DNA of 64,000 bases from the NCBI RefSeq assembly GCF_900111765.1, contig NZ_FOIB01000008.1, positions 434,001-498,000 of the forward strand, given 5' to 3'. A model generated the notes under the pieces. It worked only from the letters and a program-made list of their open reading frames with translations. It ran no database searches and was not told the origin of the DNA. Within the stretch, counting starts at the first letter, position 1, and every line of letters starts with the position of its first letter. The stretch is from Myxococcus fulvus. Lineage in GTDB: Bacteria > Myxococcota > Myxococcia > Myxococcales > Myxococcaceae. Positions 3,642-12,463 of the stretch are shown here, piece after piece. Position numbers and translations under genes: made by a program.

Positions 3642-4979
3642 TCAGAGCGAGCCGAGGAACTTGAGCACCGCGGCGCGGTCATCGGCGGACAGACGGTGGA
3701 AGCCGTCGCGCGCGGTGAGCGCCTCGCCGCCATGCCACAGCACCGCCTCTTCAATCGTCCGGGCCCGGCCATCGTGCAGAAAGCCGGAGTAGGGCAGCAC
3801 CGTGTGCGTCAGCCCCAGGCCCCACAGCGCGGGCGTGCGCCACTCCGTCCCGGTGGCCGCGCCATCCGGCCGGCCGTCCGCGAGCTCCGGCCCCATGTCG
3901 TGCAGCAACATGTCCGTGTACGGATGGATGCGCTGGAAGGCGAGCTCCTCGTAGGCAGCCTCGCCCGTCTCCAGCGTCTCGCGGTGGCAGGACTCGCAGC
4001 CCAGCGTGCGGAACAGCTTCTCGCCGCGCTGGACGGCGGGGTCCTCCAGCGCGGTGCGCGCGGGGACACCGAGCGACTCGGAATAGAAGACGGCCGCCTG
4101 CAGGATGTCGGTGGTGATTTCGTGCGTCCCGTCCGGCTCCGGGAAGAGCGGGCTGCTGATGCCCATGTCGTTGAAGTACGCCTCCGCGGACTGCTGCAAG
4201 AGGTGCGGGCTGTTCGCCTTCCACCCGAAGCGCCCGGGCAGGAGCGTGCGCAGCGCCACGTCCCAGACCTCGTTCAAGCGTCCGGAGATGCCGTCACCGT
4301 CCCGGTCATCCGGGTCCTCGAGCGCGCGCAGCGCCTCGATGGGAACGGCCTCCAGCAGCCCCAGTCCGAAGACAGGTGGCGGAAGCCGCAGCGACATCAT
4401 CATGTCCTCCGGCAGCGCCGAGCCATCCGACTTGACGATGCGCACGTTCGGCGAGCGCAGCGTGTACGGCGTGCCGTCCGCGTACTGTCCGGTGCGCTCC
4501 ACCCACGACAGCGTGAGCGAGGCCGGCGGCACCTGGCCGTAGATGGACTGGTCGCGCACCTGGAGCCCCAGTCCGGGCACTGGCACGGCGCCGTGGGGAT
4601 GGTCGGGCATGCCTTCCGGCAGGCTCACGCGCACGAGGAGCTGGGTGCGCTGCGCGGTGGGCCCCATCACCGGCATGCCGCGCCCGTTGCGCAGGTGACA
4701 GCCGTTGCAGGAGACGTTGTTGTACGTGGGCCCGAGCCCCGGGTTCACCCGCGAGGGCGCCGGGACGAAGATGGCCGCGAACGCCGCGTCGCCCGCACGG
4801 TGCAGCCGGTCGTACTCGGGTCGCAGGTTCGCGGCCGGCTGGGCGAACGCCTGCGACGTGCGGTTGTCGACGGTGGTGGCCCCGCCCGCCCTCGGTGGCT
4901 CCAGGGGCACCATCGGCGCCTCCTCACCACAACCGGCGGACCACAGCAGCAGGGCTCCCAGCATCACCGCACGTCGCAT
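3642..4979 (-). CDS. Di-heme oxidoreductase lipoprotein (DHOR/DUF1111 family)
   Basis: This 445-residue exported protein belongs to the di-heme oxidoreductase (DUF1111) family, distantly related to MauG and bacterial cytochrome c peroxidases. It has two c-type heme sites: CNGCH in the N-terminal half and CESCH in the C-terminal half. The signal peptide ends in a lipobox (LWSAGC), so it should be a lipoprotein. Other family features are GLGLLEAVP in the middle and TPALWGLGLT near the end. The ATG at 4979 is preferred; a GTG at 4988 would add three residues. It is the third gene of a minus-strand operon after a beta-barrel protein and an imelysin. Imelysin/di-heme gene pairs are a known association linked to iron uptake, with the oxidoreductase a likely partner in handling metal redox state. 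Confidence 0.9.
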   Translation of the reverse strand: MRRAVMLGALLLWSAGCGEEAPMVPLEPPRAGGATTVDNRTSQAFAQPAANLRPEYDRLHRAGDAAFAAIFVPAPSRVNPGLGPTYNNVSCNGCHLRNGRGMPVMGPTAQRTQLLVRVSLPEGMPDHPHGAVPVPGLGLQVRDQSIYGQVPPASLTLSWVERTGQYADGTPYTLRSPNVRIVKSDGSALPEDMMMSLRLPPPVFGLGLLEAVPIEALRALEDPDDRDGDGISGRLNEVWDVALRTLLPGRFGWKANSPHLLQQSAEAYFNDMGISSPLFPEPDGTHEITTDILQAAVFYSESLGVPARTALEDPAVQRGEKLFRTLGCESCHRETLETGEAAYEELAFQRIHPYTDMLLHDMGPELADGRPDGAATGTEWRTPALWGLGLTHTVLPYSGFLHDGRARTIEEAVLWHGGEALTARDGFHRLSADDRAAVLKFLGSL

Positions 4980-5006
4980 GGCGTTCACCTGGCCTGACTT
5001 CCTACA

Positions 5007-6110
5007 TCACTTCGACAGCAGGGGCAGGACCTCGCCCTGGAAGGTGTCGTGCAGGGCGCGGATGGCCTCCTGCGCGGCGGCGATCTTCGGGCGCTCCGTC
5101 TCGTCACGGATGGAGTCACGGAACGGCTCGCGGACGGCGGCCAGGGCGCTGATGGAGCCGGCGATCTGCTGGCGGATCTTCGCGTCGAGCGCGCTGTCCA
5201 CGCCCACCACGTCACGCAGCGACGTGCCCGTCTTGGCCCCGCCCTGCTGGTGACCCAGGTACGCGTTCTCCACGCTGCGGATGTTGTTGGTGAAGTCCTC
5301 GAGCGAGTTGTACGCGAACTGGCTCTCCACCACGTCCGGGTCCTTGGTGTCGTAGGGCTCGGCGATCTTCCCGTTGGCGACCTCGTCCAGGATGGTGGTG
5401 ATGCCACCGACGATCTCCTGGGCGGCGGCCTCCACGGACGGATACGCGGTGTTGCCGGACTGACCCGCCGTCGCGAGCGTGTCACGGAACGGCGGGTTGC
5501 CGTCGTGCGCCTGCGCCCATGCGCCGTGCAGCAGCTGGCCCACGGCCTTGAGCTCCGCGGACAGGGCCGTGACGTACTCCAGCTCGCGGGGCGTCAGCTG
5601 CGCGACCGTCTTGGTGCCGCCATCGCCGTAGATGAGGTACTCCAGCGTGTGGAAGCCCTTCTGCTCGTTCTTGAGGTTGCTCACGTACTGCTGCGTGAGG
5701 GCGTCGTTGTTGGCCAGCACCGCCTCCAGCTCGGTGTGGCTGACCGGCCAGCTGTCCAGCGCCGGGTCATAGCCGAAGCTGTCCACGGGGCCGAAGAGGA
5801 AGCCCTCGCTCTGCTCCCAGGGGATGCGCGCCGCGCGCCAGGCCGCCTTGGCCGCCGTCAGCTTCTCCGCCGTGGGCGCCGTCGCGAGCGCGACGCAGGC
5901 CGCGTCCAGCTCCGTCAGCCGCGTGGCCAGTCGCGCATAGGTCGGCACCACGACCTTGTCCGCGAACGTGACGACGAGCTCCGTGGTGACCTTGGAGTCA
6001 CCCTCGTTGGGGGTGTCGGAATCATCATCGCCGCAGGCCGCGAGGAACAGCGAGCCGGTGAGGAGCGCGGGCGCGAGCGCCAGACGCAGGGGCAGGGACG
6101 TACGCTTCAT
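5007..6110 (-). CDS. Imelysin-family periplasmic lipoprotein
   Basis: The protein is a 367-residue imelysin (peptidase M75-like) protein. The signal peptide ends in a lipobox (LFLAAC), followed by an Asp-rich tether (GDDDSDTPNEGDS). The hallmark GxHxxE motif is present as GFHTLEYLIYG, and the conserved WEQSEGFLFGPVD segment precedes it. Imelysins such as the IrpA and EfeO-like proteins act in iron acquisition. Despite the peptidase label the fold has no demonstrated protease activity in most members. The gene lies 27 bp upstream of the di-heme oxidoreductase gene and 43 bp downstream of the barrel gene, so the three are probably one transcript. Confidence 0.93.
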   Translation of the reverse strand: MKRTSLPLRLALAPALLTGSLFLAACGDDDSDTPNEGDSKVTTELVVTFADKVVVPTYARLATRLTELDAACVALATAPTAEKLTAAKAAWRAARIPWEQSEGFLFGPVDSFGYDPALDSWPVSHTELEAVLANNDALTQQYVSNLKNEQKGFHTLEYLIYGDGGTKTVAQLTPRELEYVTALSAELKAVGQLLHGAWAQAHDGNPPFRDTLATAGQSGNTAYPSVEAAAQEIVGGITTILDEVANGKIAEPYDTKDPDVVESQFAYNSLEDFTNNIRSVENAYLGHQQGGAKTGTSLRDVVGVDSALDAKIRQQIAGSISALAAVREPFRDSIRDETERPKIAAAQEAIRALHDTFQGEVLPLLSK

Positions 6111-6153
6111 GACTGACCTTTCGTTGGGGGTAGGGGGACGCGGCGGGGCCGCG

Positions 6154-7641
6154 TCAGTAGTTGAAGCCGGTGGCGAGGCGCAGGGTGTTCTCCGGCCGGA
6201 AGGCGTTGGAGCCCATGCGGCGGTGCCCGAAGTCGAGCTTCGCGTACACCGTGTTCAGCAGGTTGTAGGCCACGCCCACCGTGTAGATGGTGCGGCGGAA
6301 GCGAGGGTTGTCGTACAGCTCCTCGCGCGGCTTGAACTGCGTGTCCACGTAGTCGTAGCGGACGAACGGGAACAGGTGGTGCGAGTTGCTCAGGCCCACC
6401 ACCGACGCGATGTCGTAGCCGAGCTCTCCCCACGCGGCCAACGCGTTGTCGGACACCGGCGTGCGCATCACGCCCAACAGGTTCGACAGGCGTGCGTTGC
6501 GCTGCGAGACGAGCTCCGCGTTCTTCAGGTGGCCGTACATCACCATGCCCTTCGCGCTCCACGGGCCCTTGGCCACGGACAGGTGCACGTCCAGCAGCGT
6601 CAGCGGCGCGGACACGTAGCCGCACGGGGCGACCTCGCGATCATTCGCCTCCTCGCAGCTCTTCACCAGGTCCGCCTTGGGGCGGTTGCGCGTGGTGTCG
6701 CCGTGGTAGGCGGACACGCCGAAGATGAACCCGTCGAAGTGCGTGACGTCCGCGCGGAAGACCAGGGCCATGTCCGTGGCGCGCTGCACCTCGAAGCGGC
6801 GCTGGTGACCGCCCACCGCCCACAGCTGCGAGCTGAAGCCCGTGGAGTCCAGGCCGTTGACCAGCTGCCCCGTCAGCCGCAGGCCCCAGGGGAACTTGTA
6901 GCGCAGCCGCAGGCCCATCTCGTCCCACGTGTTGGGGATGATGCCCGTCTCCGCCTCGTCGCGGATGGTGCCCAGGTAGTCGGTGGGGCGCGAGAACTCG
7001 CTCAGCGTGCCCACCGCCACGTAGAAGCGGCCCACCGCGAGCGCCGCGTGGTCGCCGAGCTTCTTCGAGATGTAGAGCTCCTCGACCAGGATTTCTCCAC
7101 CCTTGTCGAGCTCCTGGTCGAACTCGCCGAACTCCTCGTACTCGAGCTCCATCGCGGTGCCGGTGCCGCCGTGCTCGAACTCGACCTCCACCTCCACCTC
7201 GAGCCCGTAGTCCGGCAGCGCGCCCTTCATCTCCAGCACGAAGCGCGTGGTGTCGAACTCCAGCCGCGAGTCGCGCTGCGCGCCACCCGTGCGGTTCTGG
7301 TTCAACCCGTAGTTGTGGTAGCCGAACAGCAGCTCACCGTAGGCCGTGACGAACGTGTCGATCTTCGGCCGCGCCCGGCTCAGGGCCGCGGGAGCAGGCG
7401 CCGCGGTGACGGGCGCGGGCTCCTTGGCGGCGGGAGACGGCGGCGGCTGCGCGGGCTCCTCGGCCGACGGAGCCGGGGACGAGGGCTCCTCGGGCGCGGG
7501 CGCCACGGGCGAATCACTCGGCTGTGCGGCGGAGACCACCGGAGCACCGGCCGAATCCTGGGCGCGGGCCACCGTCGTGGAGAGCAGCAGGGTGGAACAG
7601 AGCAGGAACGACGACGAGACGAGACAAGAGCGTGGGCGCAT
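6154..7641 (-). CDS. Predicted outer-membrane beta-barrel (porin-like) protein
   Basis: This 495-residue protein has a signal peptide (MRPRSC..., cleavage near VARAQ), then a Pro/Ala/Glu-rich linker of ~60 residues, then a long stretch of alternating aromatic and polar residues ending in ATGFNY. That pattern is typical of a Gram-negative outer-membrane barrel with an aromatic last residue. A strongly acidic loop follows the first strands (EVEVEVEFEHGG). The start is placed at the ATG at 7641 because a signal peptide begins there; upstream in-frame codons run into the promoter. As first gene of the barrel-imelysin-di-heme operon it is a reasonable candidate for the outer-membrane entry or binding component. 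I cannot assign a substrate. Confidence 0.75.
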   Translation of the reverse strand: MRPRSCLVSSSFLLCSTLLLSTTVARAQDSAGAPVVSAAQPSDSPVAPAPEEPSSPAPSAEEPAQPPPSPAAKEPAPVTAAPAPAALSRARPKIDTFVTAYGELLFGYHNYGLNQNRTGGAQRDSRLEFDTTRFVLEMKGALPDYGLEVEVEVEFEHGGTGTAMELEYEEFGEFDQELDKGGEILVEELYISKKLGDHAALAVGRFYVAVGTLSEFSRPTDYLGTIRDEAETGIIPNTWDEMGLRLRYKFPWGLRLTGQLVNGLDSTGFSSQLWAVGGHQRRFEVQRATDMALVFRADVTHFDGFIFGVSAYHGDTTRNRPKADLVKSCEEANDREVAPCGYVSAPLTLLDVHLSVAKGPWSAKGMVMYGHLKNAELVSQRNARLSNLLGVMRTPVSDNALAAWGELGYDIASVVGLSNSHHLFPFVRYDYVDTQFKPREELYDNPRFRRTIYTVGVAYNLLNTVYAKLDFGHRRMGSNAFRPENTLRLATGFNY

Positions 7642-7671
7642 CGGAGCGGCGCGCACCCTACGCTCGTGATT

Positions 7672-7694
7672 TTGATTTTGCAAACCAGAATCAA
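7672..7694 (-). promoter_or_regulatory. AT-rich inverted repeat upstream of the barrel-imelysin operon
   Basis: TTGATT (7672-7677) and AATCAA (7689-7694) form perfect arms separated by 11 bases, in a conspicuously AT-rich patch (7666-7710) of otherwise GC-rich DNA. It lies 31-53 bp upstream of the first operon gene. This is a plausible promoter/operator. It resembles a metal-regulator site only loosely, so binding by Fur or another regulator is inference. Confidence 0.4.
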
Positions 7695-7701
7695 TTTCGG
7701 T

Positions 7702-7739
7702 TCAAAGTGAAAGGCCCGGGAACTCCGTCCACCGGGCCT
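7702..7739 (-). terminator. Rho-independent terminator of the DUF3108-DUF4091 operon
   Basis: AGGCCCGG (7712-7719) pairs with CCGGGCCT (7732-7739). Read on the minus strand, the hairpin is followed by TTTCACTTT. It sits ~40 bp after the last gene of the operon and just before the next operon's promoter. Confidence 0.7.
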
Positions 7740-7775
7740 CTCCTGAACCGTGTCTTCTTTCTCAGCGGCTGATGC

Positions 7776-8690
7776 TCACCACTTCATCTCCTCCTTGCCG
7801 GGGCCGGCCTCCTGGCGCTTCTCGCCGGGGCGGCTGACGGAGGTGAGGGTGGCGCGCACGGCGCCCAAATCCAACGTGCCCACGGCGGCGAGCGGCAGGC
7901 GGCGCGCGTCGTCGGAGAGCCACACGTGCACCTCGCGCTTCTGCTTGGGGCGGTCCAGGCGGACGGCGGTGCCCACCAGGTGCCAGGCGTCGAACTGGCC
8001 CAGCGGCGTGGTCACCTTCTCCTTCTTGAGGACCTGGCCCTGCATGCGCCACAGCCGGCGCACGCCGTACACGTCGAAGCAGACGGAGAGGTTCTCCTCG
8101 AGCGGCAGCTGACGCAGCAGGTAGATGGAGCCGGCGACGTCCAGGCCGTCCTTGTCGTAGGTGTAGTTGTACTGGCCCTTGGGGCGCTGGCCGATCTGGT
8201 AGTCCACCTTGATGGCGCGGTCCTTGTGCGTGAAGGCGACCTCCACCTTGCGGCGCATCTCGTTCTCGGTGGCGTCCTCGACGTAGCGCTTGGGGCGCAG
8301 CGTGCGGGGGTTGAGCCAGGTGGTGGCGCTGCCGCGCACGCGGCGGACCTTGGAGAAGAAGGAGTTGGTCTCCGCCTGCGCGAGCACGGGAATCTGTCCG
8401 TCCTGGGGCTTCTGGACGCGCAAGGTCATCTTGCCGGCCTGCGCGCCCATGGCATCCAGGTCGAACTCGAGCACCTCGCCGGGCATGAACGCGAGCGGCA
8501 TGCGCAGCGCGGGCAGCGCCTGCGCGCAGGGCTCCACGGTGATGGGGGCTTCGTCGGGCTTGGCTTCGGTGGCCTCGGCGGGCTTCTCGCCCTCGGGCTT
8601 GTCGGCCTCGGTATCGGGGAGCTGGGCCCAGGCGGCACCGCCGGAGGTCAGCATCAGGCAGGTCGCCAGGAGGGTGCGCAGGGTGCTCAT
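7776..8690 (-). CDS. Exported DUF3108 protein
   Basis: This is a 304-residue exported protein with a clear signal peptide (cleavage near AAWAQ). A Glu/Lys/Pro/Ala-rich linker of ~30 residues follows, and then a DUF3108 domain. The domain shows the expected beta-rich pattern: MPGEVLEFDLDAMGAQAGKM, then a stretch on conversion of variables (TSFF-like NSFFSK), and LWLSDDARRLP-like VHVWLSDDARRLP near the end. DUF3108 proteins are periplasmic or envelope proteins of unknown biochemistry. A strong ribosome site (GGAAGAAGG) precedes the ATG. It is the last gene of a three-gene operon in which a second, diverged DUF3108 gene comes first, with a DUF4091 gene between them. Confidence 0.85.
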   Translation of the reverse strand: MSTLRTLLATCLMLTSGGAAWAQLPDTEADKPEGEKPAEATEAKPDEAPITVEPCAQALPALRMPLAFMPGEVLEFDLDAMGAQAGKMTLRVQKPQDGQIPVLAQAETNSFFSKVRRVRGSATTWLNPRTLRPKRYVEDATENEMRRKVEVAFTHKDRAIKVDYQIGQRPKGQYNYTYDKDGLDVAGSIYLLRQLPLEENLSVCFDVYGVRRLWRMQGQVLKKEKVTTPLGQFDAWHLVGTAVRLDRPKQKREVHVWLSDDARRLPLAAVGTLDLGAVRATLTSVSRPGEKRQEAGPGKEEMKW

Positions 8691-8712
8691 CCTTCTTCCT
8701 TCCAGAGAGAAA

Positions 8713-10404
8713 CTACGGGGTGCTCTTGGGCGTGTGACGGCCCGGACGCTTCGCGAATTCTGATGCCAACCACCGCTGCCGGAGCCTCGCCGTCACGAGC
8801 TGGCGGACCTGCGCCCATTCTCGCGCATCCCGGCGGATGTCCCAACCGGACCGCACGAGCTTGCGCGCCGCGTCTTTCGCGAAGGCCTCGTCTCCCAGCG
8901 CGGAGAGCAGCCGGAGGTACTCGTAGTCCTCCAGCCCGTCGCGCAGGTGCTTGAGGCGCAAGGACGCCACGGGGTGGTGTCGGAAACCTCCCAGGCGGCC
9001 GGGCGTGCCTGGGTAGAAGAGGGTGCCGTCGCCGTTGCCGCCGAACTCGAACACGTCGGTCCAGACGTCGTGCTTGGTGTTGTAGGCGAAGACGGTGTCG
9101 AAATAGAGCTCACCGTCCACGCCGCTCGTGAAGGCGAGCAGGCCCATGGCGCGGTTGAGCACGGCGGGGTGGTCCACCATGTATGAGGCCCAACCGCTGT
9201 AGCTGCGCTCCTGGGCGCGCTTCTGCGACGGCCCTCCATCACAGCCATGCGAGTTGCAGCTCTGGTACCACCAGATACGGGTGCCCTCGGGCAGTTGCTC
9301 GCGCATCTGGGCAAGGGTGTGCACGGCGCGGCAGGTCTGGGGGCCGGGGCGGGGGAAGAAGCAGTTGAGCGTGGGCGCGAGGATGTCGGCGGCGCTCGCG
9401 AGCGGCTCCTCCATGGGGGTGGTGATGAGCACGCGGCTGCCCCCGGCGGCGCGCACGCGGCGCGACTGCGCGAGCACGAGCGGCACGTCCTCCGGCTTCG
9501 GCTCGTCCTTGGCATAGAAGAAGAGCTGTGTGGGCCAGCCCTTCGTCCGGTAGTGCTCGGCGAACGCGCGGTACCAGGCGACCTTGCGCTCCTCGGTGTC
9601 CGCCTTGCGGCTGTCGCGCACGTCCGACGTGGTGAAGCGGGCACCCGACGCGAGCAGGCTCCCGTCGAGGAAGGGCGCCATCTCCGCGTCGTAGTCGCTC
9701 CAGTCGATGATGGGCGTGTCGCCCTCGAAGCGCACGGACGGCGGCGTCATGCTCATGCCATGTGCGCTCACGCGGTGCTCCAGCAGCACGCGCGCGTAGT
9801 CGCGCAAGAGCTCGCGGGCCTCCGGTGACTCGGGGGCGAGCTCGTGGCCCCGGGCGATGCTGTACAGGGAGATGCCGAAGCTGGTGGCCAGCGAGGACGT
9901 CGCCGGCAGCGCGAAGGGCTGCACCTCCACGGTGAAAGGGACGCTCACGTGCTCCAGCTTGTTGAAGCTCGCGCGCAGGCGCCCCTGATAGGTGCCCGGC
10001 GTCTGGTCCTCCTTCGCGCAGACCTCCACGTAGAGCACGACGGGGCGGGGCGGGGCGTCGTCACGCTCGGGGGCGCCGAGCGGCAACAGGGCATCGGGCC
10101 ATGGGCCCACGTCCCCCTCCGAGTTGGAGGGCACCTCGACATCCAGGTAGCCCACGCGCCAGATGTCCGCGTGCAGTGCGTCCGATGGACCGCCGAGCAA
10201 GAGCGGCTTCACCTTCAGGCGACGGGCCGAGTCGGGCAGCACCACCTGCGTGCCCTCGCACTCGCCGCGGGCCACGCTCAGGCGGGCCACGGGGCGCGAC
10301 GCGAAGGCGGAGCCCGGGCGCACCTTGACCAGGGGAGACACCACCCTCGGCTCCGGCGTGGCGGCCAGCGCCGCCATCACCACCCACGCCCATCCCGCGC
10401 CCAT
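8713..10404 (-). CDS. DUF4091 glycoside-hydrolase-like exported protein
   Basis: The protein has 563 residues with an N-terminal signal sequence (MGAGWAWVVMAALAA). A beta-sandwich region spans residues ~20-165, followed by a TIM-barrel-like domain. The C terminus carries the DUF4091 hallmarks NGDGTLFYPG and SLRLKHLRDGLEDYEYL. DUF4091 proteins resemble glycoside hydrolase family 123 enzymes. The adjacent acid pair in FFYAKDEP is in the right place to be catalytic. A Cys-containing insert (SCNSHGCDGG) follows a WWYQ motif. No substrate can be read from the sequence. It lies between two DUF3108 genes with gaps of only 22 and 25 bp, so the three probably act together in the envelope, perhaps on a surface glycan. 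The glycosidase role is inferred from the family. Confidence 0.85.
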   Translation of the reverse strand: MGAGWAWVVMAALAATPEPRVVSPLVKVRPGSAFASRPVARLSVARGECEGTQVVLPDSARRLKVKPLLLGGPSDALHADIWRVGYLDVEVPSNSEGDVGPWPDALLPLGAPERDDAPPRPVVLYVEVCAKEDQTPGTYQGRLRASFNKLEHVSVPFTVEVQPFALPATSSLATSFGISLYSIARGHELAPESPEARELLRDYARVLLEHRVSAHGMSMTPPSVRFEGDTPIIDWSDYDAEMAPFLDGSLLASGARFTTSDVRDSRKADTEERKVAWYRAFAEHYRTKGWPTQLFFYAKDEPKPEDVPLVLAQSRRVRAAGGSRVLITTPMEEPLASAADILAPTLNCFFPRPGPQTCRAVHTLAQMREQLPEGTRIWWYQSCNSHGCDGGPSQKRAQERSYSGWASYMVDHPAVLNRAMGLLAFTSGVDGELYFDTVFAYNTKHDVWTDVFEFGGNGDGTLFYPGTPGRLGGFRHHPVASLRLKHLRDGLEDYEYLRLLSALGDEAFAKDAARKLVRSGWDIRRDAREWAQVRQLVTARLRQRWLASEFAKRPGRHTPKSTP

Positions 10405-10429
10405 CCGCCCCCTTCACTCTCCAGCGGTG

Positions 10430-11236
10430 CTACCCACCGCTCTCCGCGCTCGCCACCGCCATCGTCCGCCCCGGCTCGTAGTCGGTGATTTCCGCCACCA
10501 CCGTGCCGAGCGCGAAGTCCGCCTCGATTCGCACCGGGACATGCCGCGCGTCCGTGGTGAGGTAGACGAACATGTCCCGCTTCGACGTCAGGCTGCCGCC
10601 GAACTCCGCCTGCACCCGCGTCTTGAAGACCTCCTGCGTCCCCAGCTCCGTCTTCAGCGTCTCGCGCGACTCCACCTTGGCGCGCATGGTGAAGCTCTTG
10701 CTGCCGGTGAACACCGGGTAGGCGTACTCGCCGCCCACGACGAGCTCGCGGTTGCGCAGCGCGAAGGTCGCGCCCGTCACGTCGAGCGTGCCCTCGACGA
10801 CCTCGGCCGTGGACTCGCGCGGCGCCTCGCCCTCCTTCTGCTTGACGACGAAGACACTCTTGCCATCCGGCTGCATCTTGATGCGCTGGCGGCGACGCTT
10901 GCCGTTCTCGTCCGCGTGCAAATCGCTGCCCACCACGCGCTGGGTGTCGGCCTTCCAGTAGGAGACGAACTTGTCCTTGATGGGCCACACGCCGATGAGC
11001 GCGTCCGAGCGCGCCACCGCGACGATGGGCCACACGTCCTCGCCCCACTGCTTCATGGGCGCGCCCACCGTCACCTGGGCGGTGCCCGCTGTCATGCCCA
11101 GGTACTTCACGCGATACTGCGCCTGCTCACCGGGGCCGAACGCCGGGTTCGCGGAAGACTCCTGGCCCAGGGCAGTCGCCGACCAGACCAGGCCCGCCAC
11201 CACCGCCGCGAACCCCCAATTGGACTGCGCACGCAT
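10430..11236 (-). CDS. Exported DUF3108 protein, second copy
   Basis: The protein has 268 residues with a signal peptide (cleavage near ATALGQ) and a DUF3108 domain (FGPGEQAQYRVKYLGMTAGT, later VYLTTDARHVPVRIEADF). It differs strongly from the last gene of the operon, lacks its charged linker, and is shorter. It is the first gene of the operon, so its promoter lies in the 330-bp region upstream. Two divergent DUF3108 proteins flanking one DUF4091 protein suggests distinct envelope roles rather than a recent duplication. Biochemical function is unknown. Confidence 0.87.
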   Translation of the reverse strand: MRAQSNWGFAAVVAGLVWSATALGQESSANPAFGPGEQAQYRVKYLGMTAGTAQVTVGAPMKQWGEDVWPIVAVARSDALIGVWPIKDKFVSYWKADTQRVVGSDLHADENGKRRRQRIKMQPDGKSVFVVKQKEGEAPRESTAEVVEGTLDVTGATFALRNRELVVGGEYAYPVFTGSKSFTMRAKVESRETLKTELGTQEVFKTRVQAEFGGSLTSKRDMFVYLTTDARHVPVRIEADFALGTVVAEITDYEPGRTMAVASAESGG

Positions 11237-11566
11237 CGAGTGAGCTCCATCGCAAGGAAGTTAAGTAGCCCGCCTGCTACTCGCCAGGCCATGCCCCCGA
11301 ACCATTCCCGCCACTCCACATTTCCCATCGACGTGCCTATGCGGCGGGCATTCAATGGACGCCCGCTCCCTCGTCTTGGGGGCGACCCGAGGGGCGGAAG
11401 GGGACGGCAGTCTCGCACGGAGGGGCCCCATGGCGCCTCCCGGCCCCCTGAACCCGGCCGCCCTGCGGCGCGCCGGGCGTGTCCACCGGCCGACACCGCT
11501 GCTAGCCTCCCGGAGGTACGGCGGCCCCGGCAGGAGGCCGCCCCCTTGCCCTGGAGACGCGGGAAC
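11237..11566. other. 330-bp divergent intergenic region with several hairpins
   Basis: No gene fits here. The stretch must carry promoters for the DUF3108 operon (minus) and the zinc-ribbon gene (plus). I see three inverted repeats: AGTAG/CTACT near 11265-11282, GCGGGC-N11-GCCCGC near 11343-11365, and GGCGGCC-N9-GGCCGCC at 11520-11542. The last lies ~25 bp before the zinc-ribbon ATG and encloses an AGGAGG. No convincing sigma-70 hexamers are visible. Confidence 0.4.
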
Positions 11567-11776
11567 ATGGCCGGTGACTACGATTTCGATGACGACGACG
11601 CCAAGGAGACGACCAAGGGCGGCCGCCTCAAGGAGTTCGACTGTCCGGGCTGCGACGCCAACAACCCCGTGCACGATGGCTTCGGCGACGGGGACGAGCT
11701 GCGCTGCAACTACTGCGGCTGCGAGTACAAGGTGAAGATCAGCGCGGAGGGCCGCACGAAGTTCAAGGAGATCTGA
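11567..11776 (+). CDS. Small zinc-ribbon protein, 69 aa
   Basis: A 69-residue acidic protein begins MAGDYDFDDDDAKET and carries two paired Cys motifs, CPGC and CNYC, separated by ~20 residues. This is a classic four-Cys zinc ribbon, of the kind used for nucleic-acid or protein contact. The acidic N-terminal stretch would repel DNA, so a protein-protein role is as likely as nucleic-acid binding. GGAG about 10 bases upstream supports this ATG. It is a stand-alone plus-strand gene, convergent with yggS-maf. I do not recognise a named family. Confidence 0.75.
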   Translation: MAGDYDFDDDDAKETTKGGRLKEFDCPGCDANNPVHDGFGDGDELRCNYCGCEYKVKISAEGRTKFKEI

Positions 11777-11791
11777 CCCGCGCGCCGGGCG

Positions 11792-12463
11792 TCAGTCCCG
11801 CTCGCCGAAGAGGGCGGTGCCCACCCGCACCAGCGTGGCGCCCGCCTCGATGGCCAGCTCGAAGTCGTGCGTGGTGCCCATGGAGAGCCCGGGCAGGCCA
11901 TGGCTCCGGGACAGCTCGCGCAGCGCGTCGAAGTATCCGCGCGCGCGGGCCACGTCGTCGGTGGGCGGCGGCAGCGACATCAGCCCCACCAGCGTGAGGC
12001 CCGGCAGCGCTCGCGCCTGGCCCAGGAAGTCGGGCAGGGCGGCGGGCTCCAGGCCCGACTTGGTGGACTCCCCGCCCACGTTGACCTCGACGTAGCAGGG
12101 GAGGGGAGAGGTGCCCTCGCGCCGCTTGGACAGCTCGCGCGCCACCTCCAGCCGGTCCAACGCATGGAAGGCGCTGGCCACCTTCGCCACGTACTTCACC
12201 TTGTTCGTCTGCAGGGGGCCGATGGCGTGCCAGCGCAGGCCCTCCAGGTCCGACAGCTCCTGGGCCTTGTCGCGCAGCTCCTGCGCGTAGTTCTCCCCGA
12301 AGTCGCGCTGACCCGCAGCGTATGCCTCGCGGATGAGCGCCGCCGGCTTGAGCTTGGACACCGCCACCAGCGTCACCGACTCCACCGGACGCCCCGCGCG
12401 CTCGCACGCCTTCGCGATGCGCGCCTTCACCGACGCCAGCCGCTCCGCCAGGCCCGTGCTCAT
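11792..12463 (-). CDS. yggS: PLP-binding homeostasis protein YggS (PLPBP/PROSC family)
   Basis: This 223-residue single-domain TIM-barrel protein is in the YggS/PLPBP family, which binds pyridoxal 5'-phosphate and buffers its supply to the cell. The PLP lysine is Lys37 in VAVSKLKP. Other signatures are [20 protein letters not shown] and [14 protein letters not shown]. Near the C terminus the phosphate-binding region reads [17 protein letters not shown], where most homologues have a SMGMSxDxxxAI pattern, a mild variation. The start codon overlaps the stop of maf as ATGA, so translation is coupled. Confidence 0.95.

Follow-up and report, generated by a model that had tools for sequence, protein, structure and literature searches.

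In the accessible text of PMC11087588, the first reported enzymes of family GH123 are from bacteria of host-associated gut or soil settings, nine residues are invariant across the characterised groups, and cleft-shaped active sites release oligosaccharides where pocket-shaped ones release monosaccharides. For the DUF3108 family (PF11306), no function was found in the literature searched, as far as its accessible text goes. Among envelope proteins with folds resembling DUF3108, EipB is a periplasmic protein whose absence makes cells more sensitive to envelope-disrupting compounds, with an exact role described as open (PMC10787603, accessible text), and GfcB is a lipoprotein working with a polysaccharide porin (PMC9603273, accessible text). 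Here, we examine a locus that joins GH123 and DUF3108 in a 64,000-nucleotide stretch of Myxococcus fulvus DNA (contig NZ_FOIB01000008.1, positions 434,001 to 498,000; this whole stretch is the window), where a GH123-type gene, G, lies between an upstream and a downstream DUF3108 gene, A and B. A more apt description of the trio is an old pair of DUF3108 genes between which a GH123 enzyme is optional, and we tentatively propose, rating the chance as somewhat below even, that A-G-B is an envelope module consisting of an exported, self-directed beta-N-acetylhexosaminidase with soluble DUF3108 partners, its activity, location, substrate and cargo all being predicted.

The three genes share the minus strand (7776-11236) and the transcription order A, G, B, with gaps of 25 bp between A and G and 22 bp between G and B; open reading frames and Pfam matches agree with the first-pass annotation on this arrangement. 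Both DUF3108 proteins match the family profile over nearly its full length (125.5 bits for A and 102.6 for B, cut-off 26), and G matches GH123_cat (PF13320) with an E-value of 2.7e-7 and 30.7 bits (cut-off 23.1), the match being confined to positions 139-324 of the 324-position profile. No NCBIfam model scored above its cut-off. In the whole 10.8-Mb genome, DUF3108 is matched twice and GH123 once, each time by a gene of the trio, so that chance adjacency is negligible.

A survey of 193 genomes of the phylum found a relative of G in 118 and DUF3108 in 171. Within the window's family (f1; f2 and f3 denote further families), the complete A-G-B order is present in 69 of the 71 GH123-bearing genomes and G with one partner in the other 2, counting only the best GH123 place per genome. 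Joint conservation of the trio among myxobacteria, one of two tests fixed beforehand, was thus found. The 21 f1 genomes without a GH123 match have the DUF3108 genes side by side in 10 cases and apart or single in 11; three further f1 genomes whose DUF3108 match is very weak or absent (G137, G182, G190) lie outside this set. Across 50 genomes from other families of the order or class, a GH123 gene stands between two DUF3108 genes in 10 and beside one in 13, the pair occurs without G between in 9 (4 of these with GH123 elsewhere), and the genes are unlinked in 18, a class that can reflect broken assemblies. For these positions, matches less than 700 bp apart on one contig were joined, and 8 fragment rows and 1 more were left out.

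The sandwich arrangement singled out in the first-pass annotation is therefore conserved but divisible, as A and B adjoin without GH123 between them in 19 genomes (9/50 and 10/21). These adjoining pairs count for the strongest rival, which we consider somewhat unlikely: the DUF3108 pair would be an EipB/Lol-like system for outer-membrane proteins, lipoproteins or lipids, with G an unrelated passenger that shares no substrate with it. That G separates A from B in 69 of the 71 family genomes with GH123 argues against such a passenger. Outside the phylum, no linkage was seen with a home-made DUF3108 profile in 45 loci having GH123 without DUF3108 beside it, 23 of which are flanked by 2.5 kb or more on each side; within these 45, L036, L038 and L039 are myxobacterial or deltaproteobacterial, and L073, a partial myxobacterial match, was excluded. 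A PF11306 search of 24 genomes carrying unlinked GH123 loci gave a match in 5, one of them myxobacterial (the genome of L038).

Phylogenetic trees, built on chosen subsets of 54, 59 and 22 rows, place this pattern in an old history. In the GH123 tree (54 proteins), the DUF3108-linked GH123s form one clade together with L036, an unlinked row from a metagenome-assembled genome (support 99/95; only 83/35 without L036), and 19 stand-alone Myxococcota paralogues with two further rows form a separate clade (100/99). Independent recruitment of GH123 by each family was rejected on this basis, and a single old clade also speaks against the passenger explanation. In the DUF3108 tree (59 domains), an A clade and a B clade separate with support of 100/100, and every genome with two ordered copies in this tree has an A-type copy first and a B-type copy second, with or without G, which led us to reject a swap of A and B; judged from their sequences, A and B represent two old subfamilies, with gene order in line with type. 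Of the f3 genomes in the tree, the two that have G and a single DUF3108 gene retain a B-type copy. A combined A and B tree of 22 genomes contains at least four changes in the presence or absence of G forced by well-supported branches. Repeated change combined with a single G clade favours repeated loss, which is the best reading, although G may have been regained at the same site. Because the pair often persists where GH123 is missing, the DUF3108 pair looks like the core and G like an optional inherited add-on. New here are the single linked-GH123 clade, the two old A and B subfamilies, the frequent persistence of the pair without GH123 and the four or more changes of G.

As a separate observation, the stand-alone Myxococcota GH123 paralogues (L184-L201) have some neighbours that match glycosyltransferases and the Wzy_C O-antigen ligase. 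Among 64 neighbours scanned of 101, glycosyltransferase group 1 occurred in 5 and Wzy_C in 3, the rest being mixed, and these neighbourhoods were dropped as too thin a guide to substrate.

We compared evolutionary rates as ratios of tree lengths, using 9 trio and 6 GH123-less f1 genomes (5 for Maf) and, in a further f1 test, 9 or 14 trio genomes against 7 to 9 that lack GH123. In f1, the A/B ratio is 2.32 (1.94-2.82) in GH123-less genomes versus 1.39 (1.19-1.65) in trio genomes; A/YggS is 2.17 (2.00-2.71) versus 1.43 (1.15-1.64), A/Maf is 1.48 (1.13-1.93) versus 0.96 (0.81-1.17), with ranges that touch, and B/YggS is 0.93 versus 1.03. The faster evolution of A without G in this family is a further point against G as a mere passenger.

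The AlphaFold model of G, with a mean predicted local distance difference test (pLDDT) score of 93.7, combines a beta-sandwich, a (beta/alpha)8 barrel and the DUF4091 fold, and a fold search places 17 GH123 entries at the head of the list (Z 25.6-38.0), led by the Group 1 enzyme NgaCa (8k2f; Z 38.0, root-mean-square deviation 2.8, 437 residues aligned). A profile search retrieves NgaCa (E 7.9e-92) and the Group 3 enzyme NgaDssm (E 8.8e-89). G resembles these beta-N-acetylgalactosaminidases over nearly the whole length of the fold (Z 37-38), in the catalytic Asp-Glu pair and in seven of the nine invariant residues; it differs from them in an identity of 18-25% in the five best fold rows, in Tyr and Phe in place of W115 and W431, in extra conserved cysteines and in linkage to two DUF3108 genes. 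The pair D300-E301 is invariant in all 57 rows of alignment A2 and in all 149 rows, duplicates included, of a larger alignment, so that the second test fixed beforehand, conservation of the Asp-Glu pair, came out as predicted. From the closeness of the profiles to NgaCa and NgaDssm, an endo mode of action appears probable for G; fold scores do not decide the matter.

Six cysteines are present in 80 of 88 DUF3108-linked rows, which hold duplicates where one genome came from two collections, and Cys 348 and 358 are both gone in 6 more, a joint loss that fits disulfides in an exported enzyme. Stand-alone Myxococcota paralogues keep only the last two cysteines, 383 and 388 (18/18); two rows among the remaining "other" sequences, which hold fragments from own genomes, have the full pattern and are not independent. 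The cysteine pattern fits a protein that folds outside the cytoplasm.

The AlphaFold model of A (pLDDT 87.0) is mostly beta, and its closest solved fold is EipB (6ntr_A; Z 16.8, root-mean-square deviation 3.2, 213 residues aligned to a target of 241 residues), followed at a distance by PA1994 (2h1t, Z 11.9), BF2203 (3fzx, Z 9.9) and YmcC (2in5, Z 8.1), which we take to be GfcB. Foldseek put 3fzx first by E-value but with a low TM-score, and searching the PDB with a DUF3108 sequence profile produced no significant hit. The similarity to EipB, with LolA-type chains at Z of about 7-8, a level reached by common arrangements, counts for the EipB/Lol-like rival. A shares with EipB, the DUF1849 representative, a spiral beta-barrel-like fold, in the model only, and a similar size; it differs in that no row at E up to 1 was obtained when 39 DUF3108 members were scanned for DUF1849, and no GH123 partner is described for EipB in the accessible text of PMC10787603. 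The likeness of A to YmcC of the group 4 capsule operon is weak, near the level of common arrangements, and A and B, unlike that lipoprotein, have no lipobox by eye and no capsule-export genes among the window neighbours. Within DUF3108, which has BF2203 as a solved relative, A and B both match the Pfam family and constitute two separate myxobacterial subfamilies retained as an ordered pair. They also differ in cysteines: the B domain has one in 23 of 23 rows, with a second just before the domain by eye in the orthologues listed, and A has no conserved cysteine.

By eye, the A and B orthologues have clear Sec type-I-like signal peptides. The proposal of three signal peptides thus stood for A and B and was weakened for G, as detailed below. 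The idea that one terminator closes the set stood in part as well: positions 7680-7775 of the minus strand fold into a strong hairpin (-41.4 kcal/mol, z -3.88), which is likely the operon terminator as judged from its predicted RNA fold, but it has no T-run and is absent from the list of a terminator scan, whose only row is 8672-8688 on the plus strand. A scan of 7500-11800 for sigma-70-like promoters listed none. The features are collected in the table.

Features of the A-G-B locus and its surroundings in the window
Feature	Coordinates	Strand	Basis
Protein A, predicted exported DUF3108, upstream (A-type) copy	10430-11236	-	268 amino acids; PF11306 E 3.4e-36
Protein A fold, predicted open all-beta barrel-like; no conserved Cys	10430-11236	-	AlphaFold model, EipB 6ntr_A, A clade 100/100
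Protein G, GH123-family (DUF4091) hydrolase with DE pair and six conserved Cys	8713-10404	-	563 amino acids; PF13320
D300-E301 codons, GH123 catalytic DE pair	9502-9507	-	Invariant; aligned to DE of solved GH123 enzymes
F435 codon, position of the substrate-contacting Trp in solved GH123 (NgaLy W431)	9100-9102	-	Sequence alignment
Protein B, predicted exported DUF3108, downstream (B-type) copy	7776-8690	-	304 amino acids; PF11306 E 3.4e-29; B clade 100/100
Protein B, Ala/Pro/acidic linker after signal peptide (by eye); conserved Cys	7776-8690	-	Orthologues by eye (linker); 23 of 23 B rows (domain Cys)
GC-rich hairpin 3' of B, candidate operon end	~7698-7750 (limits approximate)	.	RNA fold
Porin-like, imelysin and di-haem oxidoreductase cluster, in some, not all, related loci	3642-7683		Peptidase_M75 (imelysin); no Pfam match (porin-like)
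Small open reading frame (69 amino acids), divergent from the operon	11567-11776	+	Zinc-ribbon similarity below Pfam cut-offs

The surroundings of the trio are partly fixed. On one side in the window lie YggS, Maf, GGDEF and PpiD-like genes, and on the other the porin-like, imelysin and di-haem oxidoreductase genes, a region that varies across loci. YggS is found upstream of the trio in 30 of the 34 named loci listed, mostly with the Maf, GGDEF and PpiD-like genes. The PpiD/SurA-like foldase, whose gene precedes A by about 3 kb in the window and also lies upstream in many related loci, favours the EipB/Lol-like explanation. GH123-less pairs occupy similar sites: 6 of the 9 f1 pair loci fetched (from 10 adjacent-pair genomes, G131 omitted) and L181 of f2 lie within about 4 kb of YggS, and 6 of 8 f2 pair loci have YggS and Maf within the fetched stretch, the remaining two being short contigs. 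One GH123-less genome (G128; L172, L173) has a B-type gene near Maf and YggS and an A-type gene on another contig. A locus titled Comamonas sp. KCTC 72670 (L028, BNCN01000003.1) has the Myxococcus gene order from PpiD to B with 68-89% protein identity, and its label or assembly is probably wrong.

Myxobacteria are predators, which counts for a different explanation, very unlikely in our estimate, in which G would digest glycans of prey or of the environment, with the DUF3108 proteins aiding its secretion or binding its products. The gut and soil settings of the first GH123 enzymes (PMC11087588, accessible text) count the same way. Against a digestive role stand the constant neighbourhood, with YggS in 30 of 34 loci, and the vertical pattern of descent; moreover, apart from the porin-like gene, the trio has no gene for transport or catabolism next to it in the window.

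Returning to the envelope module, we envisage that A-G-B would be inherited vertically within the order and that all three proteins are probably exported. G would be a substrate-assisted GH123-type beta-N-acetylhexosaminidase, probably releasing oligosaccharides like the cleft-type enzyme NgaCa, and would act, either in the oxidising periplasm or at the surface of the cell, on the cell's own polymer containing N-acetylhexosamine (HexNAc) or N-acetylgalactosamine (GalNAc), the candidates in Myxococcus xanthus being exopolysaccharide (EPS) and spore-coat material. In M. xanthus, GalNAc chains occur in the spore coat, and GalNAc is one of the sugars reported for EPS (PMC9603273, accessible text). 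The D-G-D order, with two DUF3108 genes (D) flanking G, is also found in the 10 genomes of other families, which range from 3.4 to 7.6 Mb, so that a general role in the envelope seems more likely than one in the spore coat only. B would be, as would A in the presence of G, one of the soluble periplasmic barrel-like proteins in the structural neighbourhood of EipB, LolA and YmcC; these proteins may bind amphiphilic or polymer cargo, or G itself, to hold or deliver the glycan. B would then be the constant part and G an optional cutting step, and in one or more families A would be coupled to G.

Several observations weigh against this proposal. Two of the nine invariant GH123 residues are replaced in G by sequence alignment (W115 by Y125, W431 by F435), so that activity or specificity may differ; because both positions vary among 42 other GH123-like rows, the changes limit the claim on specificity rather than that on fold family. 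Position 435 is Phe in 14 and Tyr in 1 of 15 Myxococcaceae-type rows and Trp in 30 of the 42 others, and 76 of 88 linked rows have F435 and as many have Y125, against 1 of 18 stand-alone paralogues for each. In NgaLy, W431 lies near the substrate and its change to Ala considerably reduces activity (PMC11087588, accessible text). These replacements would suit a catalytically weak or lectin-like G that senses or holds glycan instead of cutting it, an explanation to which we give very little credence: both substitutions are aromatic for aromatic, the other seven residues (D104, D300, E301, Y380, G431, Y464 and R483) are retained in 15 of 15 Myxococcaceae-type rows, and a DE pair kept in 149 of 149 rows would be unexpected if catalysis were dispensable. 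The endo mode, too, is qualified by the fold scores, since the monosaccharide-releasing NgaP2 (8k2l, Z 37.8) ties with NgaCa, as does NgaDssm (8k2j, Z 37.3). As for export, the N-terminus of G is hydrophobic and lacks Arg and Lys in the Myxococcus rows, which by eye makes a weaker signal peptide.

The coupling of A to G is likewise open to objection. In f2 (8 trio and 8 GH123-less genomes, 6 with YggS), the A/B ratio is 0.93 (0.80-1.07) without GH123 versus 0.83 (0.67-1.01) in trio genomes, overlapping ranges that do not replicate the f1 effect and that count for the EipB/Lol-like rival; A/YggS (1.08 versus 0.75) and B/YggS (1.18 versus 0.90) both rise, ratios that are rough as YggS was read from stop to stop. 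Moreover, the acceleration of A in f1 may be a single event, because the GH123-less f1 genomes form one clade in the B tree. With A/B unchanged in f2, the rate of A is only suggestive as a sign of dependence on G, and only one lineage gives a hint of a special link between A and G.

The soluble nature of A and B also meets objections. The second fold row of A, a bovine sperm axoneme chain (9fqr_Xh; Z 16.5, 219 aligned, 13% identity), ties with EipB, and the NalP barrel (1uyn) reaches Z 10.5 and autotransporter barrels Z 8-10, so that the likeness to EipB does not prove function. PA0943 of Pseudomonas, which we take to be a DUF3108 protein, has a small place in the argument. It has been used as a control for soluble periplasmic proteins (PMC6050968), and a mutant lacking it shows sensitivity to EDTA and paraquat (PMC6448920), both according to accessible text. 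An older paper describes DUF3108 proteins as outer-membrane beta-barrels with the YmcC fold (PMC4364669, accessible text); we favour soluble A and B because of the closeness to EipB and because an Acinetobacter periplasmic proteome includes a PF11306 protein bearing a Sec signal (PMC6679007, accessible text).

Finally, no glycan-synthesis gene adjoins the trio in the window. The first-pass annotation had suggested a dedicated, undescribed surface-glycan pathway: a dedicated, exported and vertically inherited module is supported, and its surface-glycan part is plausible. A literature search found no paper joining M. xanthus polysaccharide with GH123, and the accessible main text of a paper on myxobacterial carbohydrate enzymes (PMC12093494) does not contain the term GH123.

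A more specific version of the proposal, which we regard as unlikely, is a periplasmic glycan-trimming device, in which the two DUF3108 proteins would bind nascent or misassembled HexNAc polymer, or a lipid-linked form of it, and present it to a disulfide-braced GH123 endo-enzyme; no earlier description of such a device was found in the literature searched. DUF3108 is present in several phyla with no role found in that literature, and its fixed association here with enzymes whose chemistry is known gives a starting point for finding one. The GH123s first reported are from gut and soil host settings (PMC11087588, accessible text); one that is inherited vertically and occupies a housekeeping site would suggest an enzyme acting on self. 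Since genomes that have or lack GH123 at the same place occur naturally, this question lends itself to comparative tests and to simple gene deletions in M. xanthus. If true, a glycan-trimming device would give DUF3108 its first defined role, as a carrier of glycan or glycolipid, and would give GH123 a role in making the producer's own envelope.

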